Positions 7,434-37,722 of a DNA stretch of 37,722 nucleotides are shown here, in pieces (positions within the stretch are counted from its first letter, which is position 1; every line of letters starts with the position of its first letter). Both the position numbers and the translations under genes were made by a program. Source of the DNA: Spirulina sp. SIO3F2 (GTDB lineage: Bacteria > Cyanobacteriota > Cyanobacteriia > Cyanobacteriales > Spirulinaceae); NCBI GenBank assembly GCA_010672165.1, contig JAAHHN010000044.1, positions 1 to 37,722 on the forward strand, in the 5' to 3' direction. A model generated the notes under the pieces. It made no database searches. It had not been told where the DNA came from and worked only from the letters and a program-made list of their open reading frames with translations.

Positions 7434-9365
7434 TTAGCGAAGTACCAGATAGGGCTCTAGCCATTGAGCGATCGCGCTCTGGGCAGCTAATGGAGATTGC
7501 TGAGCAATCAATTGTAAAAGCTGGTTCACAAATGGCTGATAAAGGTCGTCCTGCTGTGCCAACTGTTGTGCTGCCGTTTTCACTTGTTTGAGATCTCCAT
7601 CACAAGCTGCGTGATAGAGCGACTGTAAAAGGTTAGGTTGCGGTAATACCACAGATCGATCAGTTGCTGTGGGAACCGAGCCTGGGAATGATGAACTGGG
7701 CATGAGTACTTCAACAGGAATCTCAAACCAAAAAATGCTGCCCTGGGTGGGTATTGTTGCCACCTGAAGCTCACCACCCATTTGACGTACAGCGTGGCGA
7801 CTGAGTGTTAGCCCCAATCCAAGACCAGGAAGCTGATTGGCAGCGCCAATTTGTACAAACGGCTCAAATACCCGCTCTCGATCCACTGCACTTAAACCAA
7901 CCCCCATATCTTCTACCTCAATCCGCAGCCCACAGTTATGCTGCGAGTTGAGCGGCTGCCCAATGGTCAACGGCAAGCTTCGTACCCGTAAGGTGATCTG
8001 GCCTTGGGGTGTATAGCGAATCGCATTTTCTAACAGGGCATTGAGGACTTGGCGCAATAACCGCTCCTGGACTTTAATATGGCTGGGCAGGGTGGGACTG
8101 GGCTGGAACTGCAAGGTTAATCCCTGATCCGTAGCATGGAGCGTATATATCTGCACTATGGTGTTGAGAAAAACTGTGAGTTCCACTGTGTCAGCTAGCG
8201 GTGCGCTCGTCGGTTGCAGATCATTATGGGTCATTGTCAAAAGATCCTGGAGAACGTGAGCCATTTGTGTGGTGCAAGTTCTTATTTGCAGTAAAGATTG
8301 ACGCTGCTCTGGAGTCAAAGGGCGTGAACCTTGTAATTGCGCTAAACGACCCACAATGGTCTGAAGGGGTGTTCGTAATTCAGAATTCAAGTTCACCAAC
8401 ATTTGTTGCTGGGGCTGAAGCGGCAGCACGGGGTCTTTAGGTTGAGCGATCGTGACAAGCGCTCGTAAATTCTGATGTCCAGCATCACTGAGATAGCCTT
8501 GGCGTAATCGTTCCCAATCTTGCAGAGCCGCTGTTCGGTTCTGGTGGAACTCTTGTTGCAGGGCATTGAGGGTTTCAGGATGCTTCACATATTGCCCAAG
8601 CCAAGCCGCGAGCACCACAGCGTCTTGAATCGCGCCTAAATTTTCTTGCAACAGTTTCAATTCTGTTAGCCATTGGCAAAACGCTTGACTGTGGATGGGC
8701 GCAAAAAATTCTGCTTGGTATCGGGTTTGCTTAATCAGTTTGCGCAAATCATGCAAGGTTTCAAGTTCATGGTCTCTGAGCATCTGCTGACCACTAATTT
8801 GCCAACCCGGATGCGCTAGCAGTTGTTCAAGCTGGGCCTGGAGAACAGGTGTCGCCATGATGTTTGCTGCTCTATCCGCCAATGCCCCTTTAAGTGGGGT
8901 CTGAAGCCATTGTTGATACGTCTTTTTAAAGCGACGATAGGGTCGATCGCGGAGCACCCGATACACTTGCTTGGCCACCTTTTGCCGTCGTTTGCCCAGT
9001 TTTTTGATCAGTTGATCGAGAGCCTGCCGTTCCGTCTTGGGCAATCGGGGTCGATAGGTCTGTTGCAAGCTTTCGAGTTGCACATCCAGATCTCGCAACT
9101 GGCCCAACTGACGTCCCAATTTTCGCAGTGCTCGATTTTCCTGTTTTAGGGGAAGATTAAGCACCTCACCAAAGGTTTTGAGGGTTGCCCGTAGACGACG
9201 CAGACCCACGCGCATTTTATGCAAAGGTTCTGGATCGCGATCGGCCAGCACTTTCGGCCGCTGTTTGGTGATCTGTTGATAATGCTTTTGAATCAACATG
9301 TGGGCATAGTCACCCCAGGACACTTCGGAGTTAGGGTTTGAAGACATGGGTTTGAAGTGGTGCAT
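7434..9365 (-). CDS. CHAD domain fused to a histidine-kinase-like core lacking the phospho-acceptor histidine
   Basis: A 643-residue soluble protein. Residues about 15-300 form a CHAD domain: the two half-repeats carry the hallmark basic helices LHKMRVGLRRLRA (48-60) and LHDLRKLIKQTRY (204-216). CHAD domains bind inorganic polyphosphate. Residues about 318-555 align with a sensor kinase: dimerisation helix NLNSELRTPL (325-334), N-box ALLENAIRYTP (443-453), G1 EDMGVGL, F-box VFEPF and G2 LPGLGLGLTLS. In the H-box the expected His is Ser 328 (codon TCT on the minus strand, 8382-8384), so normal autophosphorylation is not possible, although the ATP-binding boxes look intact. A helical tail (about 580-643) resembles the end of some cyanobacterial hybrid kinases. 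No receiver domain or partner regulator lies nearby. Confidence 0.88.
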   Translation of the reverse strand: MHHFKPMSSNPNSEVSWGDYAHMLIQKHYQQITKQRPKVLADRDPEPLHKMRVGLRRLRATLKTFGEVLNLPLKQENRALRKLGRQLGQLRDLDVQLESLQQTYRPRLPKTERQALDQLIKKLGKRRQKVAKQVYRVLRDRPYRRFKKTYQQWLQTPLKGALADRAANIMATPVLQAQLEQLLAHPGWQISGQQMLRDHELETLHDLRKLIKQTRYQAEFFAPIHSQAFCQWLTELKLLQENLGAIQDAVVLAAWLGQYVKHPETLNALQQEFHQNRTAALQDWERLRQGYLSDAGHQNLRALVTIAQPKDPVLPLQPQQQMLVNLNSELRTPLQTIVGRLAQLQGSRPLTPEQRQSLLQIRTCTTQMAHVLQDLLTMTHNDLQPTSAPLADTVELTVFLNTIVQIYTLHATDQGLTLQFQPSPTLPSHIKVQERLLRQVLNALLENAIRYTPQGQITLRVRSLPLTIGQPLNSQHNCGLRIEVEDMGVGLSAVDRERVFEPFVQIGAANQLPGLGLGLTLSRHAVRQMGGELQVATIPTQGSIFWFEIPVEVLMPSSSFPGSVPTATDRSVVLPQPNLLQSLYHAACDGDLKQVKTAAQQLAQQDDLYQPFVNQLLQLIAQQSPLAAQSAIAQWLEPYLVLR

Positions 9366-9621: not shown

Positions 9622-9714
9622 AACCGGGCCAATCTGGTGAGCTGTCCACTCTTGCCAACAAACGTTGAACCGCATTGCTACGGTTGATATAGAACTTCAC
9701 CTTTGACGGGTAAG

Positions 9715-11643
9715 ATGACTACAGAACTTTGTGTACCTGCGATCGCGCCCCCAGTTATGAACGCTCCCCTGCAAGCTCTTTCTGATATTTGGTATCAGTC
9801 CGCCGCGCAATATGGCGACGTGGTGGCAGTGCATGATCCCCACAACACACCAGAGATTCAGCTCACCTATCAAGAGCTAACGGCACAGATGGACACATTT
9901 GCTGCAGCCCTGCAACATCTCGGGGTGCAGCGGGGGGACAAAGTGGCACTTTTTGCCGACAACAGTCCCCGTTGGCTCGTGGCTGACCAGGGCACGATGA
10001 AAACAGGGGCAACGAATGTGGTGCGCTCCGCTCAGGCGGAACGCCTGGAACTCCTGTACATTTACAGCGATAGCGATAGTACCGCTTTGATTGTTGAAGA
10101 TCTCAAAACCCTGGCAAAACTGCGTCCCGAACTCGATGATCGGCCGGTTAACTTCATTATTCTGCTCTCAGACGAGACACCACCCCAGGCTGAACCGACG
10201 CAAGTATTGAACTTTAACCAGGTGCTGGAGTTAGGCGCACAATATTCCCTGAAATCGGTGGCAATTACGCCTGATGATCTCGCTACGCTGATCTATACTT
10301 CCGGCACCACGGGCAAACCCAAAGGGGTGATGCTCTCCCACGGCAACCTGCTCCACCAAGTTCGCGCCTGCAAAAGCGTGATTCACCCTCGTCCGGGCGA
10401 TCGCGTTTTGAGCATTTTGCCCAGTTGGCATTCCTATGAGCGCAGTGTGGAGTATTTCCTGTTTGCCAATGGTTGCAGCCAAACCTACACCAATATTCGC
10501 TTTTTCAAAAAAGACCTGACCCAGGTGAAACCCCACTTTATGGTGGGAGTACCGCGCCTTTGGGAATCCATTTATGAGGGAGTCCAAAAAACCTTTCGGG
10601 AACAGCCTGCGGGGAAACAAAAACTGGTGAATCGCTTTTTCAAGATTTCGACCCAGTACATCAAAGCCAAGCGCATTGCTGAGGATTTAGAACTAGAACA
10701 TCCTAATCCCAGCCCTAGCAAACGACTAAAGGCCCGGATCAAGGCAGCCCTGCTCTCACCGTTGCATCAACTCGGCGATCGCCTTGTCTATCAAAAAGTC
10801 CGAGCCGCCACAGGGGGGTGTGTGCGCTATTTCGTCAGTGGCGGAGGCTCTCTGGCACGACATATCGACTTATTTTATGAAATTGTCAATGTTCCCATCA
10901 TTGTTGGCTATGGACTAACAGAGACCTCTCCAGTGGTGACGGTGCGCGATCGAGATCGCAACTTACGCGGTGCGTCAGGACAACCCTTGCCCGACTCTGA
11001 AGTCAAAATTGTTGACCTCGAAACCTGTCAGCCTGTCCCAGCTGGCCAGAAAGGTTTGGTGCTGTTGCGTGGCCCCCAAATCATGCAGGGCTATTACAAC
11101 AAACCTGAAGCTACGGCCAAAGCGATTGACGCTGAGGGGTGGTTCGACAGTGGTGATATTGGCCTACTGACCCACGGCGATAACTTAGTGATCACCGGCC
11201 GCGCCAAGGACACGATTGTCCTCAGCAATGGTGAAAATATCGAACCCCAACCCCTTGAAGATGTCTGTGTCCAGAGTCCTTATATCGACCAGATCATGGT
11301 GGTGGGCCAAGACCAAAAACAACTGGGTGCGTTGATTGTGCCCAATCTAGAAACCGTTGCCCAATGGCTCGCTGAGCAGCAATTAGAGCTGAAACTGCCG
11401 GAGCTGGGGGCCAGCGATCGCCTCGATCTCGATCATCCCAAAATTCAGGCACTGTTTGCCCAGGAACTCCGTCAACGGGTCAAGGATCGACCAGGCTACC
11501 GTCGGGATGACCAGATTGGCGTCTTGCGTCTAATTCTGGAGCCCTTCACAATTGAGAACGGCCTGCTCACCCAAACCCTGAAAGTTCGTCGGCCTGTGGT
11601 AAGCGATCGCTATCACGCTATCATTGACGGGATGTTTCAGTAG
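9715..11643 (+). CDS. aas: Long-chain acyl-ACP/acyl-CoA synthetase
   Basis: A 642-residue adenylate-forming enzyme. Motifs: the P-loop-like YTSGTTGKPKGVMLSHGN, GYGLTETSPVV, WFDSGDIG and GRAKDTIVLSNGENIEP. It has the length and sequence of cyanobacterial acyl-ACP synthetase, which attaches free fatty acids to acyl carrier protein to recycle those released from membrane lipids; in other bacteria the same family makes acyl-CoA. A TTG at 9703 could extend it by four residues, but the ATG at 9715 is preferred. It is followed after 37 bases by ylqD on the same strand, so the two probably form an operon. The family 2 element lies in its upstream region. Confidence 0.93.
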   Translation: MTTELCVPAIAPPVMNAPLQALSDIWYQSAAQYGDVVAVHDPHNTPEIQLTYQELTAQMDTFAAALQHLGVQRGDKVALFADNSPRWLVADQGTMKTGATNVVRSAQAERLELLYIYSDSDSTALIVEDLKTLAKLRPELDDRPVNFIILLSDETPPQAEPTQVLNFNQVLELGAQYSLKSVAITPDDLATLIYTSGTTGKPKGVMLSHGNLLHQVRACKSVIHPRPGDRVLSILPSWHSYERSVEYFLFANGCSQTYTNIRFFKKDLTQVKPHFMVGVPRLWESIYEGVQKTFREQPAGKQKLVNRFFKISTQYIKAKRIAEDLELEHPNPSPSKRLKARIKAALLSPLHQLGDRLVYQKVRAATGGCVRYFVSGGGSLARHIDLFYEIVNVPIIVGYGLTETSPVVTVRDRDRNLRGASGQPLPDSEVKIVDLETCQPVPAGQKGLVLLRGPQIMQGYYNKPEATAKAIDAEGWFDSGDIGLLTHGDNLVITGRAKDTIVLSNGENIEPQPLEDVCVQSPYIDQIMVVGQDQKQLGALIVPNLETVAQWLAEQQLELKLPELGASDRLDLDHPKIQALFAQELRQRVKDRPGYRRDDQIGVLRLILEPFTIENGLLTQTLKVRRPVVSDRYHAIIDGMFQ

Positions 11644-11680
11644 ACATTGCGCGTAAATTTTTAACAGGAAATCTTAGATC

Positions 11681-12121
11681 ATGACCAGTTCATTGACTGT
11701 CAAGCGTCCCATTGTGCTGAAAGTGATTGTGACCCCTCGTTGGCAAGAGGAAGTCACAACTCAACTTACGGCTCAGAGTGGCCAGCTTGAAAAGCAAATC
11801 CAGGATGTAGAACTCCAAGGACAACGCGCCGTCTCGGAAATTCAAAAACAGGGAGTTGCTATGACCAACCCCCAAGCACTTCAGCAAATTGAGGCTATTC
11901 AGAACCAAGTCAACCAGCGCAAGAGTGAGCTACAGCAAAAGCGCAATCAACTCTTACAGCAGCTTGAGCAAATCGGCAAGTTGGAAATGGAGCAAGAGGT
12001 GGCACAGGGCCAGCTTGAGGGCTTTTGTGATGTGAATATCGGTGATAATCTCGTCAAAAAGCTGCAAGTAGAAGTTGTGGTGCGCGATGGTGTCGTCGAG
12101 GAGATTCGCGGCGAGTTGTAA
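11681..12121 (+). CDS. YlqD family protein
   Basis: A 146-residue protein, mostly a long central coiled coil (about residues 25-110, rich in Gln, Glu and Leu heptads), flanked by a short beta-rich start (VKRPIVLKVIVTP) and a beta-rich end (LQVEVVVRDGVVEEIRGEL). This arrangement matches the YlqD family of Firmicutes and cyanobacteria, whose function is unknown. The ribosome binding site AGGAAA lies at 11666-11671. It follows aas closely and ends just before a strong bidirectional terminator, so aas-ylqD looks like a complete transcription unit. Confidence 0.85.
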   Translation: MTSSLTVKRPIVLKVIVTPRWQEEVTTQLTAQSGQLEKQIQDVELQGQRAVSEIQKQGVAMTNPQALQQIEAIQNQVNQRKSELQQKRNQLLQQLEQIGKLEMEQEVAQGQLEGFCDVNIGDNLVKKLQVEVVVRDGVVEEIRGEL

Positions 12122-12210: not shown

Positions 12211-13356
12211 TTATGCACGTGGCTTAACCGTTCCTGATTGCTTGAGATAAAGCTCAGCAGTGATGATACTAAGGAGTGTTAGGAGTGCCGCGATCGCGGA
12301 GCCAACCAAATTAAACTGATAAACCAGCAAAGCGATCACTCCGGTCATCCCAGCGTAGGTCAGGGCGATTTTCTGGTCAGACCAGCCTGCTTGTTGGAGT
12401 CGTTGATAGAGATGTAGGATTCGGGACTTGCGGATTCGGAAGAAATCTTCGCCACGCAAAAGACGACGGATCGCAGTATAGGTGGCATCTCCCATCAGTG
12501 GAAAGGTAACGGCGATCGCTGACCAAAATAACTCTGGGCTGGTATCAAAAAGATCTACAGGATCGCCATTGAGCAGGATGACTGCTACGAGCAACCCGAG
12601 CGCATTATTCCCTGTTTTTCCTATCACAACCTTTGCAGGTGGCCAGTTCCATGGCAAGAAACCAATGAGAGCAACAGGGAGAAAAATTAACGCGGGTTGG
12701 TCAAGATAAATCGCCAGAAAAATGGTTTGAATGATGGCTGTGCCAGTCACTAAGCCATCAACACTACCCATGAAATTGTAGAAGTCGAGGAAGGCTGTGA
12801 CAAACATCAAGGTGATGGGCAAACCAAAGAGCACAGCCATAGGGTCTGATTGTTCTAAACCTGGAAGGGGGACAACACCAAAAAGTAATGAGATAAATAC
12901 TGACACGAGTGTGAGCAAGCGTGCCCAGTCAAATTTTTGATTGAAAGCGGACAAATCTTGGTGTATAGATTGTGTATTCAAGAGAATGCCCATCTGCATA
13001 ATGAGAATGCCGTGAGGCAGATCAAGAGACCAAGTATCCCTTGCCAGTCCACCTGTTAAACAAAATGCTAGTCCCCAGGAAGACCACAGATTAATTATTG
13101 GGGTTTGAGGTTGCTTCTGTCTGGAGTCAATATTGCTGGAACCAACATCATCTGATGCAGGTGGTATTTTCTGTTTTGCGGTGTATCTTGTGCCCCAATA
13201 CGAGAGATACCAGGCTGACCCGCTCAGTCCCAACCAAACCCAAACGATAAAATCTTCATTCACTTCAATCGGCCGCAAAGCCCAACGGCCAAACAATAAG
13301 ATGGCAATGAGGCAGGCAATCCAGGTGCCGAGTTCGACATTAAAGATTTTACGCAT
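12211..13356 (-). CDS. Degenerate paralogue of the MraY/WecA-type transferase next door (probable pseudoenzyme)
   Basis: A 381-residue polytopic membrane protein that aligns over its length with the 385-residue product of the gene just upstream. Shared: the C-terminal HLYQRLQQAGWSDQKIALTYAG block, the LFWSAIAVTFPLMGDATYT segment and most membrane helices. Lost: the PRGGG motif is replaced by unrelated residues at about 60-90, the DD motif of the catalytic loop is absent (the region reads QSIHQDLSAF), NFMDGLDGL has become NFMGSVDGL (194-202), and MGDVGS has become IGKTGN. With the Asp residues gone it should not catalyse sugar-phosphate transfer. The frame is intact, which argues for a retained non-catalytic role. 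Its ATG overlaps the upstream gene by 8 bases with no Shine-Dalgarno, suggesting translational coupling. Confidence 0.85.
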   Translation of the reverse strand: MRKIFNVELGTWIACLIAILLFGRWALRPIEVNEDFIVWVWLGLSGSAWYLSYWGTRYTAKQKIPPASDDVGSSNIDSRQKQPQTPIINLWSSWGLAFCLTGGLARDTWSLDLPHGILIMQMGILLNTQSIHQDLSAFNQKFDWARLLTLVSVFISLLFGVVPLPGLEQSDPMAVLFGLPITLMFVTAFLDFYNFMGSVDGLVTGTAIIQTIFLAIYLDQPALIFLPVALIGFLPWNWPPAKVVIGKTGNNALGLLVAVILLNGDPVDLFDTSPELFWSAIAVTFPLMGDATYTAIRRLLRGEDFFRIRKSRILHLYQRLQQAGWSDQKIALTYAGMTGVIALLVYQFNLVGSAIAALLTLLSIITAELYLKQSGTVKPRA

Positions 13357-14506
13357 CAGACTTGGATGGAGGAGTTAGTTTGCCTTTGTTTTGAAGATAC
13401 AGTTCAGCACTCAGAATTCCGGCTAGGGTGAGCAGGGCTGCGATCGCTGAACCCGCCAAATCCCACTGATAAATAAGAACAGCAATGATCCCCGTGACTG
13501 CAATATAAGTTAACGCCACTTGGCGGTGCGTCCAGCCGGATTGATGGAGGCGTTGATAGATGTGAAAACGATGGGCTTTGAAGATATTTTCTTGGCGTAA
13601 TAGGCGACGGAAGATCGTGTAGGTGGCATCGCCAATGAGTGGAAAGGTGATGGCGATCGCCGACCAAAATAATTCCGGTGTTGTCCCCCAATCTGTATTC
13701 ATTCCCGAGCCATTGATCAGCGCTAGGATGATAATTGCTCCCAAGGTTGTACTGCCCACATCCCCCATAAAAACTTTAGCAGGCGACCAATTCCATCGCA
13801 AAAAGCCCACTAGACCTGCGGCTAAAGGAATCAAGGCAGGCTGATGCAGATAAAGAGCTAAGAAAACAGTCTGAACTAAAACCGTTCCTGCCACCAAACC
13901 ATCTAAACCATCCATAAAGTTATAGAGGTTGATGAAGCCTGTAATAAACAGGAACGTCAGTAAAACTCCGAGAATATGGATAACATCTGGGGATTGTCCA
14001 AAAATGGGAAGCGGAACCCTGCCAAAGCTAAAGGCTAAAATCGCCACGAGAAAGTGAACGAGATAGCGCAGCCTTGCTGAAACATGACCCTGATCATCTT
14101 GGATACTGACACAATATAAAATCAGGAGCTGGATTGTGAATAAATCCCTGCCCAGACCACTAGAAATCAAACTGGCCGACCAAATGTATTTCAGTAATAT
14201 ATTGCCAAGTAAAAAACCCAAAAAGAAGAATTTCCCTCCACCTCTAGGCGTGGGTTTTCGATGGGAACTCCGCTTGTTAGGAATATCAAGAAAATCCTCA
14301 TTCGCTTGCTTGATGAATTTACGACTACAGGTGAAGGAGAAATACCAACAACAGAAGACTAATGTAATCCACAAGAGAATGCTAAGGGACAAGTAGGATG
14401 TTGTCGGAAAAACTTCATAAAATTCAATGGCAGAGATGCCAAATAATCCTCCGTAAACCAGAAAAAGAATCCACAGATCAAGATCAACATCGAATAGTTT
14501 GGGCAT
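13349..14506 (-). CDS. MraY/WecA-family undecaprenyl-phosphate sugar-1-phosphate transferase
   Basis: A 385-residue protein with about ten membrane helices. The family motifs are in order: NKRSSHRKPTPRGGG (77-91), SIQDDQGHVSARLRY (134-148, catalytic Asp pair), NFMDGLDGLVAG (196-207, catalytic Asp), MGDVGSTTLGA, and HIYQRLHQSGW near the C-terminus. Members move a sugar 1-phosphate from a UDP-sugar onto undecaprenyl phosphate at the inner membrane face, starting O-antigen, exopolysaccharide or similar glycans. It resembles the WecA branch more than true MraY because of its length and HIYQRL ending. The substrate is not known. It is the first gene of a two-gene unit with the degenerate paralogue; no glycosyltransferases lie nearby. 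Confidence 0.9.
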   Translation of the reverse strand: MPKLFDVDLDLWILFLVYGGLFGISAIEFYEVFPTTSYLSLSILLWITLVFCCWYFSFTCSRKFIKQANEDFLDIPNKRSSHRKPTPRGGGKFFFLGFLLGNILLKYIWSASLISSGLGRDLFTIQLLILYCVSIQDDQGHVSARLRYLVHFLVAILAFSFGRVPLPIFGQSPDVIHILGVLLTFLFITGFINLYNFMDGLDGLVAGTVLVQTVFLALYLHQPALIPLAAGLVGFLRWNWSPAKVFMGDVGSTTLGAIIILALINGSGMNTDWGTTPELFWSAIAITFPLIGDATYTIFRRLLRQENIFKAHRFHIYQRLHQSGWTHRQVALTYIAVTGIIAVLIYQWDLAGSAIAALLTLAGILSAELYLQNKGKLTPPSKSDA

Positions 14507-34729: not shown

Positions 34730-36352
34730 CTAGCTGGCGATCGGCTCAAACACCTCCTCTTCGGCAACTATGGCTTCTTGCTGGGCCTTCGCCGCTAAAA
34801 ATGCGGCCACCTGACCCTCAATTTCCGTTCGCACAATCTGACGATATTCCATAAAGTGACCAATCTGGGCATAGGTTGCCAGGAAGCTAGAGATGCCGTT
34901 GGGGTTGATGCGATACATTTGCCAGAGGTAGCGCCAGTACCAGAAGCGGGTTTTTTCCACCACACCATATTGCCAACAGAGGGTACAAAAGGCCCGCACG
35001 ATCGCCCAATCAAATTTGCTACCTTTGGGTGGGTTGGCTCGCTTGAAGCGTTGCTTTTCCTGACGATAGGGCGCACTTTCCACAATTGAGGCGTGACGGA
35101 AGACGCGATGCAAAAAGGTCAGCGGATCATAAAGTTGCCAAAAGCCTTCTACATATTCTCGGGCGATTTCTTCGATGGGACGCGTGGGGACGAAGTTCAT
35201 CAGGTTGGTTTGGTTCCCGCTGGTGCTGTTGGGATCAAGGAGACGACCTTCTTTGGCTAATCGATGGGACAGCGCCGTATTGGGCAACGCCTGCAACATG
35301 CTGAAGAATGCCGTAGCGATGCTGGTGCGCTCCACAAATTGGACGATGCGATCGCCCGCCCCCGACTTCTCGCCATCAAAGCCCACAATAAATCCTGCCA
35401 GAACCCGTAGCCCGGAAGCCATAATGCGATTCACCGATTCACTGAGGGGATCGCGGGTGTTTTGGAATTTCTTAGTGACCTCTAGGCTGCCTTCATCAGG
35501 GGTTTCAATCCCGAGGAACACCGCACTAAAACCTGCCTGCACCATCATGTCCATGAGTTCCTGGTCTTGGGCCAAATCCACGGACGCTTCGGTGGTGATC
35601 CCAAAGGGATAGCCATGCTCTTTCATCCAAGGAATCAGGTCCTTGAGCAGAAGCTTCACATTGCGCTTGTTGCCAATAAAGTTGTCATCCACCAAGAACA
35701 GATTCCGCCGCCAGCCCAATTCATAGAGACGTTCCAGTTCAGCGATAAGCTGCTGGGGGCTTTTGGTGCGGGGTTTGCGACCGTAGAGAACAATAATGTC
35801 GCAGAATTCGCATTGGAAGGGACAGCCTCGGGAGAACTGCACTGACATCTCGTTATACGCGTCGAAGTCAAGCAAATCAAAACGCGGCACGGGCGTGATG
35901 GTAACATCGGGCTTCTCTTCGGCGCGGAATGTACCGGAGGTTTCGCCCCGAGCGATCGCCTCGGCAAACATTGGTAGGGTAATCTCGCCCTCATCCAAAA
36001 TCAGGAAATCTGCCCCCGCAGCAGCTAACTCTTCTGGTAGAGAACTGGGATACGGCCCACCAACAGCAACTAACTTATTTCGGCGTTTGGCTTCTTTAAT
36101 TTGGGCAGCAAAATCCTGTTGTTGCACAATCATGCCGGAGAGCAGCACGAGTTCTGCCCAATCCCAGTCCGCTTCACTGACATCGGCAACGTTACGGTCA
36201 ACTAGCCGAAATTCCCAGTCTTGGGGCAAAATTGCCGCTACGGTAACTAGACCCAAGGGGGGGAGCATGGCGCGACGACCTGCCAGTTCCAAGGTTTTTT
36301 CAAACGACCAAAAGGTCTTGGGGAAAAGGGGATAAATTAAAAGGACTTTCAA
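34730..36352 (-). CDS. B12-binding-type radical SAM protein with DUF4070-like C-terminus
   Basis: A 540-residue protein. Residues 1-140 form a cobalamin-binding-like Rossmann domain (MKVLLIYPLFPKTFWSF, VAVGGPYPSSLPEELAAAGA, LDEGEITLP) without the DxHxxG motif, as is common in this class. The radical SAM core begins at FSRGCPFQCEFCD: Cys 177, 181 and 184 form the CxxxCxxC cluster site. The C-terminal part (LMNFVPTRPIEEIAREYVEGFW and HFMEYRQIVRTEIEGQVAAF) matches the conserved tail of this cyanobacterial family. Class B radical SAM enzymes of this layout methylate or rearrange unactivated carbons; HpnP, which methylates hopanoids, has a similar layout, but assignment to HpnP is not certain. A paralogue lies two genes upstream. 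Confidence 0.9.
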   Translation of the reverse strand: MKVLLIYPLFPKTFWSFEKTLELAGRRAMLPPLGLVTVAAILPQDWEFRLVDRNVADVSEADWDWAELVLLSGMIVQQQDFAAQIKEAKRRNKLVAVGGPYPSSLPEELAAAGADFLILDEGEITLPMFAEAIARGETSGTFRAEEKPDVTITPVPRFDLLDFDAYNEMSVQFSRGCPFQCEFCDIIVLYGRKPRTKSPQQLIAELERLYELGWRRNLFLVDDNFIGNKRNVKLLLKDLIPWMKEHGYPFGITTEASVDLAQDQELMDMMVQAGFSAVFLGIETPDEGSLEVTKKFQNTRDPLSESVNRIMASGLRVLAGFIVGFDGEKSGAGDRIVQFVERTSIATAFFSMLQALPNTALSHRLAKEGRLLDPNSTSGNQTNLMNFVPTRPIEEIAREYVEGFWQLYDPLTFLHRVFRHASIVESAPYRQEKQRFKRANPPKGSKFDWAIVRAFCTLCWQYGVVEKTRFWYWRYLWQMYRINPNGISSFLATYAQIGHFMEYRQIVRTEIEGQVAAFLAAKAQQEAIVAEEEVFEPIAS

Positions 36353-37183: not shown

Positions 37184-37722
37184 TTAGCTAGCGATCGCCG
37201 CCACCGTTTGCTCTTGTTCTGCTTGCTGGGCTTGCAGATCCCGCTCATGAGCCAGGTAAGCCGCTAACTGTTCCTCAATACCATCCTTAACCAGTTGACG
37301 GTATTCCAGAAAATGCTCTATCTGGGAGCAAATAGTGAGATAACTGAGCAATCCACCAGAATTATGGCGCACCATCCAAAACAGATACGGCCAAAATGTC
37401 CAGCGAGTAGAGCGCACCACCCCTTGGCTCCACAGCACGATTAAGCCCGCTTTAACAACCTGCCAGTCAAAGGGTTTCTTGATCTTTTTTTCTTTTTTGG
37501 GATAGTTGGCTTGCCCAAGGATTTGATAGCAGCGGAAGGTGCGATCGAGGAATTTTTGGGGATCGTAGAGTGCCCAAAACCCGTCTACATACTCACGGGC
37601 AATATCTTCAATCGGACGAGTCGGCACAAAATTCATCAACGTCGTTTGGTTGATATCGCTGCTGGTGTCGAGCAACCGACCTTCCTTGATCAGACGTTGA
37701 GAGAGAGCGGTATCCGGTAAGA
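37184..37722 (-). CDS. B12-binding-type radical SAM protein, N-terminus outside the window
   Basis: Only the last 179 residues are visible; the frame stays open to the right edge. They align with the C-terminal part of the 34730-36352 product: LPDTALSQRLIKEGRLLD versus LPNTALSHRLAKEGRLLD, MNFVPTRPIEDIAREYVDGFW, and HFLEYRQLVKDGIEEQLAAYL. Both end in IAS. The similarity is clear but with many differences, so they are old paralogues. The radical SAM cluster motif lies beyond the edge and cannot be checked. It is upstream of the PhyH-like gene on the same strand. Confidence 0.88.
   Translation of the reverse strand, partial: LPDTALSQRLIKEGRLLDTSSDINQTTLMNFVPTRPIEDIAREYVDGFWALYDPQKFLDRTFRCYQILGQANYPKKEKKIKKPFDWQVVKAGLIVLWSQGVVRSTRWTFWPYLFWMVRHNSGGLLSYLTICSQIEHFLEYRQLVKDGIEEQLAAYLAHERDLQAQQAEQEQTVAAIAS

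Follow-up and report, generated by a model that had tools for sequence, protein, structure and literature searches.

A CHAD–histidine kinase fusion in Spirulina with serine at the phospho-acceptor position and a predicted polyphosphate-binding site

What does a protein do when it joins a CHAD domain to a histidine kinase core in which serine occupies the place of the phospho-acceptor histidine? Such a protein is encoded in Spirulina sp. SIO3F2 by a gene on contig JAAHHN010000044.1, of which positions 1 to 37,722 were analysed (hereafter the window; 37,722 nucleotides), in a draft assembly (GCA_010672165.1) of 7.3 Mb in 453 contigs that is 96.5% complete. The original prediction for this locus was a polyphosphate-sensing, ATP-binding pseudokinase, and hence a new signalling layout, that might control a partner by conformation or phosphorylate another residue. 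Its reading of CHAD and HisKA/HATPase regions in one frame holds, as a single open reading frame of 643 aa with an ATG start spans 7434–9365, but the strand is corrected to minus (9365→7434); the plus strand across this interval is full of stops. The product comprises a CHAD domain (residues 25–256; 8598–9293, minus strand; Pfam PF05235, E 1.4e-54, 185.9 bits against a gathering score of 25.6), a linker, a HisKA domain (residues 320–380; 8226–8408, minus strand; Pfam E 7.4e-8, 32.8 bits against a cut-off of 26.9), a HATPase_c domain (residues 434–552; 7710–8066, minus strand; Pfam E 2.2e-21, 76.8 bits against a cut-off of 26.4) and a C-terminal helical tail (residues 575–643, or 577–642 in the structure model; 7437–7643, minus strand). 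Elsewhere in the window, two glycosyl transferase family 4 genes lie side by side in tandem (12211–14506), and an open reading frame at 37184–37675 resembles by eye the C-terminal part of a radical-SAM-like one at 34730–36352 (shared MNFVPTRPIE.IAREYV.GFW), of which it is likely a paralogue cut by the contig end.

The CHAD half retains the residues expected of a polyphosphate-binding protein. In CtCHAD, the central polyphosphate contacts tested by mutation are His253, Arg256, Arg260, Arg296, Arg418 and Tyr419 (PMC6537752). All six have counterparts by alignment in the Spirulina fusion, as in 39/39 standalone CHADs: H49, R52 and R56 (9198–9221, minus strand), R91 (9093–9095, minus strand), and R215 and Y216 (8718–8723, minus strand). 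An intact central site is thereby supported at the level of these residues. In the outer patches (CtCHAD numbering), K441 is kept and R438, R385, K386, K389 and K390 are not; a basic residue at those five positions is absent from most of the 39 standalone CHADs, with Lys at 438 in 12 and Lys or Arg at 390 in 10. Likeness to standalone CHADs extends to about residue 305, and a profile built from the 39 scores the fusion at 292 bits. Among the 64 columns conserved in at least 90% of them, 54 are kept (84%), against 92% or more for each standalone CHAD in a leave-one-out comparison, so this CHAD too shows some wear. The same genome contains a PP_kinase (ppk1-type) match. The Spirulina fusion therefore resembles the standalone CHADs or phosins (CtCHAD, SsCHAD; PF05235) in possessing all six central contacts, and probably binds polyphosphate, but differs from them in adding a kinase core and tail to what is otherwise a frame of 272–392 aa (74 such frames in 80 genomes).

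The kinase half departs from its class at the phospho-acceptor itself. Its H-box reads VNLNSELRTPL, and Ser328, as originally predicted, stands at the histidine position (codon TCT at 8384–8382, minus strand). A sequencing or assembly error at 8382–8384, or a chimeric join, might be suspected in so fragmented a draft; however, histidine is encoded by CAT or CAC, two base changes away from TCT, so that one base-call error cannot explain the serine, many other kinase positions also differ, and a homologue in another genus is collinear across the join, all of which makes an artefact extremely improbable. Serine at this position is also exceptional in its surroundings. A degenerate DNA pattern for ELRTPL, which also accepts a small number of near neighbours, EFRTPL among them (5 and 0 matches in the reversed-pattern control), gave 53 matches in the source genome, with a histidine codon directly before 50 of them; the other three are the fusion, an Amt-HisKA protein with threonine, and a match on contig C104 whose stop-to-stop frames are all shorter than 80 aa. 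Across 53 aligned reference kinases, counted after removal of 8/63 rows (seven named long-branch or partial sequences and one shorter than 200 residues), the H-box column holds His in 51, Thr in one and a gap in one. Among the loci most similar to the kinase half, the 21 H-boxes that were read all have histidine; one of them belongs to the related fusion G001, described below.

The threonine belongs to the Amt-HisKA protein, a second kinase of the source genome without the histidine (G000:C417:23144-26512; 1123 aa), in which an ammonium transporter is followed by HisKA, HATPase and adenylate/guanylate cyclase domains. Its H-box is NTSTELRTPL, and its first N-box asparagine is replaced by histidine. 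Eleven relatives were fetched and the Amt-linked H-box was read in nine, with histidine in 9/9, including a full-length relative (G641; 48%).

Beyond the H-box, the kinase half is a mixture of kept and lost residues. The N, G1, F and G2 boxes had all been taken to remain; this is correct for G1, F, G2 and the second N-box asparagine (N447), but the first N-box asparagine, present in 52/53 reference kinases, is Ala443 (8037–8039, minus strand). Of 39 columns conserved in at least 90% of the references, the Spirulina fusion keeps 27, including E329, R331, T332, P333, N447, D486, G488, G490, F500, G514, G516 and G518, so that the nucleotide pocket appears mostly kept and E329 and T332 preserve an ExxT motif; the losses include F322, H328, D377, K380, D433 and N443. 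Among 54 aligned kinases, with one gap row set aside, the first N-box asparagine is missing solely in the two rows that lack the histidine (S/A in the Spirulina fusion, T/H in the Amt-HisKA protein; Fisher p 0.0007), a post hoc comparison in which both rows come from one genome. In HWE kinases glutamate replaces this asparagine (PMC12148442), and the metal is typically held by the second (PMC10017428), so its loss alone is no proof of a dead kinase. Phosphoserine is reported as too stable for a His-Asp relay (PMC5054060), and Ser328 is therefore not expected to take part in one. Autokinase activity has probably been lost; ATP binding may persist as in the chloroplast sensor kinase (CSK), or be weak as in DivL.

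It has also been considered that Ser328 or another hydroxyl residue serves as an alternative phospho-acceptor, making the protein a Ser-type kinase with a histidine kinase fold, as PDK is reported to be and as plant CSK may be according to one suggestion (PMC5054060). There is a hydroxyl at the position in question, the Amt-HisKA protein has threonine at the same place, and CSK without its histidine still binds TNP-ATP (at 1 uM), with PDK, ETR2 and plant phytochromes grouped as Ser/Thr-type (PMC5054060). However, both proteins without the histidine also lack the first N-box asparagine, and no relative found has serine, which leaves such an activity quite improbable. The suggestion that the kinase phosphorylates another residue is weakened by the same N-box loss, although HWE kinases carry glutamate there.

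Degeneration of the kinase half into a pseudogene, with the whole gene on its way out or replaceable, would account for the 12/39 conserved kinase columns that are lost and for the very long branch of this half in phylogenetic trees (below). Yet the frame runs for 643 codons without a stop, the glycines and aspartate of G1 (D486, G488, G490) and the glycines of G2 (G514, G516, G518) are in place, and the CHAD half is well kept; simple decay of the gene is accordingly judged improbable. Across the 990 nt of the kinase half the frame is open despite 4.3% of possible single-base changes there creating a stop, which suggests that selection maintains production of the protein.

Whether serine reflects a conserved design depends on relatives with the same architecture. 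One was found, in another genus of the same family (G001:C221; about 627–637 aa). The two fusions are collinear across CHAD, kinase and tail (189/645 residues identical; 22/64 aligned residues in the tail), but their state is opposite. The G001 fusion has an intact histidine (NINHELRTPL) and keeps 36/39 of the conserved kinase columns, sharing N327 and T377 with the Spirulina fusion, whereas its CHAD retains 0/6 central contacts by alignment (Q, Y, S, T, C and K instead) and 26/64 conserved CHAD columns, and scores 37 bits in Pfam against 186 for Spirulina (93.5 bits with the profile from 39 standalone CHADs). Its genome, in addition, encodes a separate standalone CHAD.

The search for further members was made by tblastn in 59 genomes and by profile, from a two-row alignment of both fusions, in overlapping draws of 388 genomes of the order (E to 1e-30, best matches first), 388 of the class (to 1e-62) and 386 of the phylum (to 1e-68). 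No third fusion occurred among the matches listed in the order, class and phylum searches, in which three candidates were scored per genome and the class and phylum limits were strict, so that a diverged fusion could be missed. CHAD-side matches listed in the class search lie in frames of 313–411 aa; 80 genomes searched separately for CHAD yielded 75 matches above the cut-off, of which 74 lie in 272–392-aa frames and the remaining one is the G001 fusion. Among plasmids, 2839 records matched, none with a single place covering 80% of the query. A contig scan with short single-sequence patterns, which constitutes weak evidence, returned 22 loci, none of whose matches begins before residue 260, which places them on the kinase side. 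Three loci with similar kinase and tail (G001:C342, G228:C20 and G125:C383) were rejected as fusions, since by eye they begin with segments other than CHAD; L111 and L112, the nearest kinases in a quick tree, were likewise set aside as they carry no CHAD. A CHAD–kinase family with conserved serine was thus not found among the matches listed from these 388, 388 and 386 genomes, and the sole other fusion found has histidine, so that neither serine as a conserved design nor a conserved new signalling layout is supported. The finding that had been named in advance as marking the Spirulina copy as an isolated mutation, the same fusion with an intact histidine, was in fact obtained; that description is nevertheless too simple, given that the fusion with histidine lacks the polyphosphate site and that the Spirulina fusion is its genome's sole CHAD match.

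The two fusions probably have a common origin. At CHAD columns where both depart from nearly all references, they share the same residue in 17/71, against a mean of 4.8 and a maximum of 14 in shuffled data (0/10,000 shuffles reach 17), and the best of the 39 standalone CHADs shares 10 rare residues with the Spirulina fusion. The equivalent count in the kinase half is 10/53 (shuffled mean 4.2, p 0.007), and two other kinases, L049 and L032, have 12 and 11 rare residues in common with the Spirulina kinase half, more than the 10 of G001. The signal of shared rare residues is clear in CHAD, and weak and not decisive in the kinase half. The two fusions group together in a quick kinase tree (SH-aLRT 87), while a careful one separates them without rejecting a forced pairing (p-AU 0.265). 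The Spirulina kinase half has one of the longest branches in both (2.45 and 4.09 in the quick and careful trees, against medians of 0.42 and 0.55), and in the CHAD tree the end branches reach 9.44 for G001 and 1.74 for Spirulina; with end branches of such length, trees cannot settle a single origin. When G001 is omitted, the Spirulina CHAD branches outside a group formed by 30 standalone CHADs from its order (support 100/99), which makes it unlikely that the family's own CHAD was recently fused, with the caution that this branch is also long. Taken together, the sequences look like the outcome of a single fusion event followed by decay of opposite halves in two lineages, the pair providing one case each way because there are only two members.

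A possible reason for this pattern lies in the number of CHAD proteins that each genome encodes. One standalone CHAD is present in 12/12 family relatives, G001 having it in addition to its fusion, and CHAD matches exceed the cut-off in 72/80 related genomes, with none above it in eight, so that its absence is uncommon though not unique. In the source genome the fusion is the only CHAD match, though at 96.5% completeness a standalone CHAD could be missing from the assembly. It may be inferred that the polyphosphate site was kept where the fusion is the sole CHAD and was free to decay where a standalone copy is present, and that the Spirulina fusion has replaced a lost standalone CHAD. Genes for an acyl-CoA synthetase and YlqD adjoin the Spirulina fusion (window 9703–12121); of 18 standalone-CHAD loci compared, just one, in G051, has this pair too, at a distance of about 1 kb. 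Synteny was rejected as proof of replacement, this pair recurring at a single locus and no site of a lost standalone CHAD having been found. Near family standalone CHADs, genes named by eye as Crp/Fnr-like, small exported-protein and pentapeptide-repeat genes recur, each at 5/12 loci. Two genes recurring near family CHADs, other than the pentapeptide-repeat one, were sought in the source genome; one gave a 35% match, and the other none in a search run without a positive control.

Histidine kinases without the histidine are known from other systems, among them CSK, which has Tyr, Gln or Glu in its place across green algae and plants and no CHAD domain. CSK resembles the Spirulina fusion as a modified histidine kinase that lacks the histidine, and it is still ATP-binding (PMC5054060). 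DivL of Caulobacter likewise has a HisKA/HATPase core with a residue other than histidine at this position and its other boxes kept, works without kinase activity and binds TNP-ATP at 57 uM (PMC4211667). It differs from the Spirulina fusion in having PAS domains in place of CHAD, in its known partners DivK and CckA, and in that its tyrosine is conserved among orthologues (except for Ala in Magnetospirillum; PMC4211667), whereas the serine of the Spirulina fusion stands alone, its one orthologous fusion having histidine. RetS of Pseudomonas has a transmitter unable to autophosphorylate, as is proposed for the Spirulina fusion, and its core dephosphorylates GacS, for which it needs the Thr of HExxT (T428, the Thr of the transmitter-phosphatase ExxT motif), and inhibits GacS autophosphorylation (PMC5992135). 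In RetS, however, the HATPase domain is without G-boxes and the phosphorylation sites are present, the reverse of the Spirulina fusion. A catalytically dead variant of ChrS promotes signalling via a paralogous kinase (PMC9491836). Fusion of CHAD to another domain also has precedent in the CYTH/TTM-CHAD proteins (ygiF and an Acidithiobacillus cyclase), for which polyphosphate has been proposed as a regulator, but there the partner is a triphosphate-tunnel enzyme and lies N-terminal to CHAD. Both elements are thus known separately, in DivL and CSK on the one hand and TTM-CHAD on the other; neither a CHAD–kinase fusion nor this combination was found in the open-licence literature searched.

These precedents bear on the reading closest to the original prediction, a polyphosphate-gated pseudo-histidine kinase in which polyphosphate bound by CHAD would alter a dimeric transmitter and so control a partner kinase or regulator, or in which the protein would act solely as a phosphatase via ExxT. 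In an AlphaFold2 model of the Spirulina fusion (mean pLDDT 68.8, pTM 0.42), most of the HATPase domain is predicted with high confidence and the helical tail with fair confidence, but CHAD residues about 142–262, roughly half of that domain, are modelled poorly owing to the near absence of usable CHAD rows; neither the CHAD half nor the domain arrangement of the model is used as a basis here. Foldseek matches of the model comprise GacS, RetS (6dk7, TMt 0.81), HK853 and DivL (4q20, TMt 0.70) among many ordinary kinases, and place the fold rather than the function. The confident HATPase fold with its RetS and DivL matches, the mostly kept HATPase pocket with E329 and T332, the maintained open frame, and the examples of DivL, RetS and ChrS are consistent with a pseudokinase. 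However, no second member lacking histidine was found, and with it no sign of selection for a pseudokinase state; the kinase half has one of the longest branches in the trees; and a Pfam scan of 14 other open reading frames from among those in the window gave no receiver domain, though a partner could be encoded at a distance. A gated pseudokinase is possible but doubtful. More tentative still is the fuller scenario in which an ancestral polyphosphate-sensing histidine kinase gave rise to a polyphosphate-gated pseudokinase in Spirulina, where an ATP-loaded but dead dimer would tune a partner kinase or dephosphorylate a regulator.

The reading given slightly better than even credence is instead that this CHAD protein has been preserved for its polyphosphate binding, its kinase half persisting as a dimerising pseudo-transmitter whose role is minor or conformational. 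One CHAD–histidine kinase fusion would have arisen in or before the family of the Spirulina fusion. In Spirulina, where the fusion is the sole CHAD match and no standalone gene turned up, the polyphosphate-binding half would have been kept, while the kinase half would have lost its phospho-acceptor histidine and first N-box asparagine and stopped autophosphorylating. The HisKA helices may now hold a polyphosphate-bound, phosin-like CHAD protein as a dimer, and the ATP-binding-like pseudo-transmitter would be retained with at most a conformational or accessory role. Running counter to this account of a polyphosphate-binding CHAD protein, G1, F, G2, N447, E329 and T332 are all kept, which is more than pure decay needs.

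Polyphosphate is an ancient store and signal. Direct links between it and two-component systems seem scarce, and a polyphosphate-sensing histidine kinase was not encountered as a sensor type in the open-licence literature searched; the existence of a CHAD–kinase fusion points to at least one origin of such a link. If the pseudokinase reading were true, the Spirulina protein would tie two-component signalling to the phosphate store of the cell, and do so without self-phosphorylation. The locus also carries a warning that a lone kinase without its histidine need not be a designed pseudokinase. The oppositely decayed pair amounts to a natural experiment, if a small one, in which part of a sensor-kinase fusion is worth retaining, and what survives in the Spirulina fusion is CHAD, the domain for which its genome shows no standalone counterpart.
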